Below, piece after piece: positions 17,080 to 18,355 of a stretch of 35,428 nucleotides of DNA. Each line of letters opens with the position of its first letter. The first letter of the stretch is position 1. A model generated the notes under the pieces. The model ran no database searches, was not told the DNA's origin, and saw only the letters and a list, made by a program, of their open reading frames with translations. The translations under genes and the position numbers were made by a program. Source of the DNA: an uncultured Lentisphaeria bacterium. GTDB lineage: Bacteria; Verrucomicrobiota; Lentisphaeria; Victivallales; Victivallaceae. The stretch is from contig CASFVA010000064.1 in the NCBI GenBank assembly GCA_949298075.1, positions 1 through 35,428 on the forward strand, given 5' to 3'.

Positions 17080-17108
17080 TTGTATTGTTGATGGCACCAT
17101 GCTATATT
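17080..17108 (+). promoter_or_regulatory. Promoter for the cobalamin riboswitch transcript
   Basis: TTGTAT (17080-17085) and TATATT (17103-17108) have the ideal 17-nt spacing. The expected start, about 17114-17116, falls just before the riboswitch aptamer, which supports both predictions. Confidence 0.7.
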
Positions 17109-17114
17109 AATAGG

Positions 17115-17215
17115 ATTGGCAGGGACATTGACCAGTGAACCGCGTGCAAATCGCGGACTGTCGAGCAACTGTGATTCCGCCGGTTCCGGCGGCAAGTCAG
17201 ATCCTGGTCTCTGTT
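17115..17215 (+). promoter_or_regulatory. Cobalamin (B12) riboswitch aptamer
   Basis: The core follows the cobalamin riboswitch consensus. GTGAAC is followed by stem CCGCG (17140-17144)/CGCGG (17152-17156) enclosing TGCAAAT, then ACTGTCGAGCAACTGTGA (17157-17174), a stem CCGCCG (17177-17182)/CGGCGG (17187-17192), and AAGTCAGATCCTGGTC, a somewhat shortened B12 box. ACCAG (17131-17135) pairs with CTGGT (17204-17208) to close the aptamer, with CAGGGA/TCTCTG able to extend the outer stem. Such RNAs bind adenosyl- or methylcobalamin and usually repress B12 uptake or synthesis genes. Here the next gene on this strand encodes a pseudopilin-like protein. Confidence 0.88.
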
Positions 17216-17483
17216 CAGAATCACCCTTCCCGGCAGCATCGACTTCCGGGGATGTGCCCGTAACGCATTCACAGGGTCGAATATGCAGCAGCTAAACCGT
17301 AACAGCCGGTACAGGAATACCGGCGAAAGTGCACTGTGCCGCTTTGTCGGCAACACCGGATTTCCGGCGCCTTATTCTCCTCGGGCGTCGGGCACGGAAA
17401 ATTCAATCGGCGTTCAGCCGCGGATTCCGCAGACATGGACGCAACCGGAATGTTCCGGATTCACTTCAGAGGAGATTTCCCGC
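17216..17483 (+). other. Expression platform and leader between riboswitch and pseudopilin gene
   Basis: These 268 bases contain several possible hairpins: CGAC/GTCG arms flanking 17240-17280, CCGGTA/TACCGG near 17306-17323, and CCGG/CCGG further on. There is no clear terminator with a T run, so control of translation is likelier. An ATG at 17283, preceded by AGGG at 6 nt, opens a frame that runs without stop into the pseudopilin gene. It could give a 67-residue extension, but the protein-like start is 17484. Confidence 0.45.
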
Positions 17484-18281
17484 ATGACGACTTTATCGAG
17501 TCGGTCCCCCCGCCCCAACGGCGGCCGGTCCCCGTTAAGACCGGCCGGAGCCGCAGCTTTCACCTTGATTGAGCTGCTGGTGGGCATTGCAATAATTGCC
17601 ATTCTGGCCAGTATTCTGCTGCCGTCGCTGCAGCGGGCCAAGGCCAGGGGCGTATCCACCAGCTGCCTGAACAATACCCGTCAGCTGGGAATTATGAACC
17701 ACCAGTATTCGGATGCGTATTCCGGCTGGTACTGTCCGCTTTACGACGGCAAATCCGGCTGGGATGCCTCGTTCAAGAGCGACTTCTCCATTGATGAAGA
17801 CTCCAAAGGACTGCTGGCCGCCGGCATCGGCGGCGCCAGTTCCGGCAGCAACCGGGTCTGCCTGTGTCCGGCAATCAAGGACAGCTACAATACCAGCTGG
17901 GCCTCGGTCAACAGCGGGTACGGTTACAACGAATTTCTCGGAGCCGAGGCGAGCTGGTCCGGCGGTCTGCGCTGGAAGGGCGTCAAAAACTCCCGGTTGC
18001 GGATTCCGGCCCTGACGGTGATGTTCGCCGACTGCGGATACCTTTCCGGCAGCAACGTCGAACCCTCCAGCTATCTGCGCGCTCCGGAAGGGCGTGATGG
18101 CAGCTACAGCTCCAGCGGCACGGCCGCGTTCCGCCACTCCGGATCGGTCAACGCCGTGTTTGCCGACGGACACAGCGAATCCCGGAGTGAAATTTTCACC
18201 GGCGGCAAGGCGGATGCCGACGGCATCATCACCGGGTTCATCTCAGATGACAACCGCAATTACGATCCGGACTGGCGCTGA
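17484..18281 (+). CDS. Type II secretion-like pseudopilin, H-X9-DG family
   Basis: This 265-residue protein has a prepilin-type leader rich in Arg/Pro/Ser ending PAGAAA, then [31 protein letters not shown], the methylation/assembly helix with Glu five residues after the cleavage site (cleavage after Ala rather than the usual Gly). The C-terminus has [12 protein letters not shown], an exact H-X9-DG box. Such proteins are greatly expanded in Lentisphaerota and Planctomycetota; most have no known role and are thought to be membrane-anchored or assembled by a type II secretion-like system. ATG at 17484 is chosen because AGGAG lies about 9 nt upstream; an in-frame ATG at 17283 would add 67 residues. 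The cobalamin riboswitch precedes it and a strong terminator follows. Confidence 0.87.
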
Positions 18282-18315
18282 TCAGCTCCAGCCTTTTCCG
18301 GTCTGAAACCGAAAG

Positions 18316-18355
18316 AAATCCCGACAGCCCCCTGTATGGCGCTGTCGGGATTTTT
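18316..18355 (+). terminator. Rho-independent terminator after pseudopilin gene
   Basis: AAATCCCGACAGC (18316-18328) pairs perfectly over 13 bp with GCTGTCGGGATTT (18341-18353), followed by further T. It ends the riboswitch-pseudopilin unit 35 bp after the stop, which therefore appears to be monocistronic. Confidence 0.92.

Follow-up and report, generated by a model that had tools for sequence, protein, structure and literature searches.

The riboswitch-pilin locus

The window, which is the whole stretch of 35,428 nucleotides analysed from an uncultured bacterium of the class Lentisphaeria (order Victivallales, family Victivallaceae), carries a compact unit on its + strand: a cobalamin riboswitch aptamer of the AdoCbl-II type (17119–17214) and a gene encoding an H-X9-DG pseudopilin (17283–18281; PF07963, TIGR02532, TIGR04294). 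A possible sigma-70-like promoter, TTGTAT-N17-TATATT, can be read directly at 17080–17108. The first-pass annotation described this promoter as good; the sequence is present, but the adjective is too strong, because the first hexamer is identical to TTGACA at only three of six positions and the promoter is missing from the listing of a consensus promoter scan. The unit ends with an intrinsic terminator, a hairpin followed by a U tract at 18315–18354 (-25.6 kcal/mol, z -6.6; 0 of 200 shuffles equally stable), and its description as strong holds, even though a consensus terminator scan does not list it.

Class of the aptamer

The aptamer matches the Rfam model AdoCbl-II (RF01689) with 30.6 bits and an E-value of 3.3e-5 in a scan of 561 bases, the genome-scale E-value from a whole-genome search also being 3.3e-5. 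This is a significant full-model match (model positions 1–81 of 81), but it remains below the gathering score of 36.5 bits, which is the curators' threshold and no structural feature, and which is exceeded in 13 of the 78 genomes of the family. A check against the Rfam covariance models is, thus, positive for significance and negative for the curated cut-off. The score of the cobalamin model RF00174 is 18.9 bits (gathering score 31.5), and at the gathering thresholds of Rfam the whole window gives a tRNA as its sole match and no riboswitch. A lineage covariance model (R1) was therefore built from 18 aptamer-plus-P13 sequences of relatives, the window being excluded. It matches 17121–17268, including P13, with 54.8 bits (E 3.9e-12; the E-values of this model are rough), and this is its single match in the whole window at E-values of up to 1. 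Given the score below the curated cut-off, the aptamer is of the AdoCbl-II type rather than a certified member of RF01689. The case for it rests on model scores and conservation, because single-sequence fold stability lends nothing to it (the fold of 17115–17300 is not stabler than shuffles; z -0.33). The scores of both models, together with the pilin domain matches described below, confirm the original observation of a cobalamin riboswitch in front of a pseudopilin gene. A shortened B12 box had also been suggested as possibly altering ligand binding, which was an overstatement: the RF01689 alignment contains one deletion, and the box looks like the core of the AdoCbl-II type and not like a broken element.

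A real departure of the window aptamer lies in loop L5, which reads CGAG rather than the CGCG usual in relatives. The P5/L5 element CTGTCGAGCAAC is located at 17158–17169 (loop at 17162–17165), and the P13 hairpin at 17250–17270 has a loop, L13, of sequence CCCGTAA, the proposed kissing partner of L5. In many relatives, the hairpin ttgtgCGCGTAAcacaa or a similar one lies 3' of the aptamer, followed by a ribosome-binding site and a start codon, and the loop of P13 is able to base-pair with L5 (CTGT-CGCG-CAAC). A pattern search of the family loci found the combination CGCG/CGCG (L5/hairpin loop) in 31 loci. The window and two relatives (L062 and L071) combine CGAG with CCCG, giving three standard pairs of four with an A-C as the fourth in each; CGCG/CCCG (six loci) and UCCG/CGAG (three loci) have one mismatch each, and further single loci have poor pairings. 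The sole fully compensated change is found in one locus, L048, with CGUG in L5 and CACG in the hairpin loop, and the pattern search found no matching hairpin for 33 loci with CGCG in L5. The covariation of the kissing loop is thus thin, one compensated change standing against mismatched and hairpin-less loci.

The likely ribosome-binding site, AGGG (17273–17276), lies inside the extended P13 stem of the fold predicted for 17115–17300, six nucleotides from the ATG at 17283, which stands close behind P13 in agreement with the layout of relatives. Since AGGG is held within this stem, the predicted fold points to translational repression, with the ATG at 17283 as the controlled start. This start would give the protein a long leader, of 92 residues; leaders of 60–148 residues, as judged from open reading frames, are found in several relatives, some of these frames starting inside or before the aptamer. 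The ATG at 17484–17486, read directly and preceded by a GAGGAG of its own, is a possible alternative start codon.

The pilin

The protein has 332 residues from the ATG at 17283 and 265 from that at 17484, and the codon of the mature Phe is at 17559. The prepilin cleavage/methylation motif is present (N_methyl, PF07963, 23 bits, cut-off 21.2; TIGR02532, 23 bits, cut-off 16.3), as is the C-terminal H-X9-DG motif (TIGR04294, 19.9 bits, cut-off 19), whereas the match to DUF1559/SBP_bac_10 (PF07596) is below threshold (15.1 bits, cut-off 23.3). Pfam gives N_methyl and this weak DUF1559 match only, and the TonB plug domain (PF07715) was not found in the protein. An AlphaFold model (36 sequences; mean pLDDT 71) comprises the pilin helix and a globular part of poor model quality; a search of PDB structures gave no match at an E-value of 0.001 or below, and the pilin helix only above it (1ay2, E 0.27).

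The genome of the window contains 32 N_methyl matches. In a FastTree phylogeny in which all 28 background pilins come from this genome, one branch (support 0.64) holds 69 of 72 riboswitch-locus pilins and 2 of the 28 others; eight pilins were left out of the tree, five for want of a start motif that fitted the pattern within their first 140 residues, and three for being too short. A clean clade of riboswitch-linked pilins was considered and rejected, given this support, the two background pilins inside the branch and the three riboswitch-locus pilins outside it (two second pilins and one at a distance of 1.5 kb). RH or KH precedes the DG motif in 67 of the 72 riboswitch-linked pilins versus 5 of the 28 others of the one genome.

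Riboswitch loci in the family

RF01689 matches at E-values of up to 0.05 are found in 48 of the 78 family genomes and RF00174 matches in 62. The union of the two lists yielded 112 loci, including that of the window. Left out were one of the 62 RF01689 matches, which lies at the beginning of a contig of genome G006, and one RF00174 match, the second riboswitch of contig C310 of genome G063. The latter omission works against the pilin reading, because this riboswitch ends 49 nt before a pilin gene that is followed by btuF. Seven loci with less than 500 nt downstream were dropped, leaving 105 usable loci with at least that length. Genes were labelled from BLAST clusters and the pilin motif, with Pfam and NCBIfam checks on examples, in which the transporter labels agreed (Peripla_BP_2, FecCD, ABC_tran).

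A pilin is the first labelled gene in 65 of the 105 loci, the window included, and such pilin-first loci occur in 60 of the 69 family genomes with usable loci. The pairing noticed in the window is, therefore, found again in its relatives, and the opposite picture, of a B12 transporter gene with a pilin inserted by accident, does not describe a family in which a pilin comes first in the majority of loci. At least one of btuF, btuC and btuD lies within 3.2 kb in 35 of the 65. The pilin-first share is 11/14 for RF01689 matches at or above the Rfam cut-off and 9/17 for RF00174-only matches of at least 31.5 bits. The first labelled gene in the other 40 loci is btuF (11), btuC (2), btuD (1), a large PMP/RTX-type repeat protein (5), a member of one of two corrin-pathway-like gene clusters (4 and 3) or MarC-like (2); in three loci it is far off, and nine loci have no labelled gene, among which some weak riboswitch matches may be false. 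In a control, pilins were found on the same strand in 0 of 30 TPP riboswitch loci of the family (30 of the 75 listed; flanks of 1.5 kb). Even at an assumed pilin rate of 10%, the binomial probability of the pilin-first share is below 1e-37, a figure that ignores kinship; the loci are not independent, as many of the counted genomes are close kin. The window pilin itself is monocistronic, and the btuF-btuC-btuD genes of its genome are on another contig, behind a second cobalamin riboswitch match (24.4 bits, cut-off 31.5).

Distribution beyond the family

Seven further families of the order contributed 60 listed loci. Of these, 57 were usable, and a pilin comes first in 24, from five of the families and 23 genomes, with btu genes within 3.2 kb in 14 of the 24; a large repeat protein comes first in 10 of the 57. 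The window pilin is 41–47% identical to its six nearest public relatives over their best segment, and the nearest named ones come from Lentisphaeria/Lentisphaerae metagenome-assembled genomes, including those from goat rumen and sheep colon (L202, L205, L207). A cobalamin riboswitch match lies upstream in five of the six (L202–L205 and L207), with scores below the family cut-offs in L202–L205 and just reaching its own in L207; R1 finds the same five, four of which are genomes already in the locus counts. The match in L203 is 1.3 kb upstream, with another pilin in between, according to the map of L190.

A gathering-threshold scan of 73 of 74 further pilin relatives revealed a cobalamin riboswitch in only one, L210 (Verrucomicrobia), where the gene of a probably secreted protein separates the riboswitch from the pilin. 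Most distant relatives are, thus, not riboswitch-linked. The 74th relative, L209, a metagenome-assembled genome of Candidatus Zipacnadia (Armatimonadota), has two Cobalamin matches (87.8 and 86.3 bits) in front of a pilin 32% identical to that of the window.

TonB receptors and secretins

The plug domain of TonB receptors was detected in 2 of the 78 family genomes (one of them below the cut-off) and in 3 of 137 genomes of the order, and was not found in the genome of the window, these counts being based on draft genomes and a single Pfam model (PF07715) that did detect the domain in control genomes (E. coli, Caulobacter and Bacteroides). The order is, therefore, nearly devoid of TonB receptors, and BtuB is hardly to be found in it. 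Secretins are present in 77 of the 78 family genomes and PilT-family ATPases in all 78 (76 over the cut-off).

The other orders of the class present a different picture. Sixteen of 19 cobalamin riboswitches sampled there, from among the best-scoring matches rather than at random, precede a TonB receptor; the remaining three precede metE, a DUF4465 protein (L393) and an otherwise unmatched PEP-CTERM protein, and there is no pilin among the open reading frames displayed at the 19 loci. The position behind the riboswitch is, thus, occupied by TonB receptors in the sampled orders that possess them and, in the family without them, most often by a pilin.

Proposed role of the pilin

The window pilin almost certainly belongs to the B12 regulon. 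Most likely, it stands in for BtuB in acquiring corrinoids at the outer membrane, a role to which we would assign a probability of roughly 0.6. The earlier suggestion that the protein might have a part in corrinoid capture or import on the cell surface, thus, gains indirect support, from the recurrence of pilins at the head of riboswitch units and btuFCD operons and from the scarcity of TonB receptors. Vitamin B12 is generally held to be too large for porins.

Several elements of a possible mechanism are backed by data: the riboswitch, membership of the regulon, the linkage to btuFCD in relatives, the near-absence of TonB receptors, and the secretins and PilT-family ATPases. From these, we infer a course of events in which the RNA would first bind its ligand and act as a repressor. 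With ample corrinoid, the class II-like riboswitch would block translation of the pseudopilin, the ligand stabilizing both the L5–L13 kissing loop and the P13 stem with the ribosome-binding site inside it. Under corrinoid shortage, the pilin would be made, cut by the prepilin peptidase and built into a pseudopilus by the cell's type II/type IV pilus machinery, which is based on secretins. Its exposed H-X9-DG domain might then bind corrinoid, or a surface protein carrying corrinoid, and the pilin would carry the corrinoid across the outer membrane, possibly by retraction, before BtuF-BtuCD took over. The pilin would, in this way, do the work that other bacteria leave to BtuB, a TonB-dependent receptor. 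That the pilin itself binds corrinoid and is moved through the secretin by pilus dynamics is a tentative proposal, to which we give somewhat less than even odds.

Three other explanations deserve consideration. The main rival, although unlikely, also places the pilin in the B12 regulon, but in a pseudopilus for secretion: in the manner of type II secretion, this would export a surface protein that scavenges B12, and the pilin itself would move no corrinoid inward. It would account for the large PMP/RTX-type repeat protein that adjoins the pilin in some riboswitch units (such as L071, L082 and L090), for the probably secreted protein between riboswitch and pilin in L210 and for the PEP-CTERM protein after the pilin in L209; but most pilin-first units contain no repeat protein, 35 of the 65 hold btu genes, and one dedicated pilin per substrate would suit binding better than a generic secretion piston. 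Still less probable is that the pilin meets some other B12-dependent need under B12 limitation, such as attachment or the uptake of DNA with corrinoid genes. Type IV pili are known for roles in both attachment and DNA uptake, and 29 of the 105 loci are standalone riboswitch-pilin units with no btu or cob genes within 3.2 kb; such a need would, however, leave the btuFCD operon and the missing BtuB unexplained.

The first-pass annotation had also raised the possibility that the riboswitch is a remnant from a lost transporter gene. This origin, or a chance capture of the riboswitch by one of many pilin genes, appears very improbable. The window pilin is indeed monocistronic and pilins are numerous in its genome (the 32 N_methyl matches), but the pairing occurs in 65 of 105 loci and 60 genomes, versus 0 of 30 TPP loci (the probability below 1e-37 given above, kinship ignored), spans genera and families, and recurs both with and without btu genes; transporter loss is also countered by the btuF-btuC-btuD genes that the genome of the window retains behind its second riboswitch match.

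If the preferred role in corrinoid acquisition is correct, a likely ligand can be named for one pilin of a large family of unexplained function, a B12 route is proposed for outer-membrane bacteria without TonB receptors, and the role of the many pseudopilins of these bacteria becomes testable with a single vitamin. A broader idea, which we regard as speculative and rather less probable than not, is that substrate-specific pseudopilins working via secretins constitute a TonB-independent form of nutrient import across the outer membrane; the riboswitch pilin would be its corrinoid-specific member, and other H-X9-DG pilins would be receptors for other large substrates.

Relation to known systems

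The window aptamer resembles AdoCbl-II riboswitches (RF01689, which shares one clan with RF00174 and RF01482) in its core and junction elements, over the full model, and in the position of P13 near the ribosome-binding site; it differs in its score below the cut-off, in the combination of L5 CGAG with L13 CCCG and in the control of a pilin. The btuB-btuFCD regulon likewise has riboswitch control and, as in relatives of the window, btuFCD partners, but a pilin often stands where other orders have a TonB receptor. The window protein shares the N-terminal prepilin motif and the H-X9-DG end with H-X9-DG/DUF1559-type pseudopilins, and is set apart by its place in the riboswitch-linked RH/KH set and by a DUF1559 score below the cut-off.

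Planctomycetes form a phylum related to that of the window's bacterium. According to the available part of one study, planctomycete pili-like fibres bind dextran (PMC5394234); as surface fibres binding a large nutrient they offer a parallel, but the substrate is a sugar polymer, the phylum is another one and that part mentions no riboswitch (PMC5394234). BtuH/DUF4465 proteins are described, in the available parts of two reports, as surface B12-binding proteins (PMC13398666, PMC8941943), with B12 binding by DUF4465 domains in the eight members tested and genes often located beside TonB receptors (PMC13398666). They share B12 scavenging with the proposed role of the pilin, and L393, a locus in one of the other orders of the class, has its riboswitch in front of a DUF4465 gene, but the protein family is not that of the window's pilin. 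Lentisphaerae and BtuFCD are treated in PMC2667541, the available part of which contains no word of pilins. No pilin under a cobalamin riboswitch is reported in the titles and abstract beginnings listed by searches of the open-licence PMC literature. The class of riboswitch and the kind of protein are, thus, both known; their union and the TonB-free B12 route that it implies did not appear in the open-licence literature searched.

Other genes in cobalamin-riboswitch units

Giant proteins of one cluster are encoded directly behind cobalamin riboswitches in L337, L340, L342, L345 and other loci of one genus (g47), and in L062, L071 and L082; the two that were scanned (L082 and L337) contain Chlamydia-PMP and RTX repeats. 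After the pilin, this is the second kind of surface protein in the B12 regulon that lacks an explanation. Small lipoprotein-like open reading frames with a CxxC motif directly follow the riboswitch pilin in L048 (2629–2958, 110 residues) and L047 (85 residues); that of L048 has no match in Pfam or NCBIfam, and the pair are candidate partners of the pilin. In five loci (L041, L077, L180, L328 and L336), a HutW/ChuW-like radical SAM protein, possibly involved in corrinoid or heme processing, is encoded between the pilin and btuF; that of L041, the only one scanned, scores 337.7 bits (cut-off 400).

Several families of the order encode radical SAM proteins of a second kind, about 460 residues long and with a SPASM domain, downstream of strong class I cobalamin riboswitches; they were identified by Pfam in L305 and L306 and by their first residues in L302, L312, L318, L319 and L331. 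In family f2, the gene of an HlyD-type membrane-fusion protein follows strong cobalamin riboswitches (L299, by Pfam; L301, by similar length and first residues), and genome G096 has cobalamin riboswitches before thiC and the anaerobic ribonucleotide reductase gene nrdD (L325 and L326). A CobD-type aminotransferase is fused to the cobyric acid synthase CobQ in an 879-residue protein of L040 (6282–8918), and a cluster of proteins resembling it, with a median length of 856 residues, is found in 12 loci. A pilin of the window type is present in L245, a metagenome-assembled genome titled Klebsiella pneumoniae that is probably mislabelled or a mixed bin.
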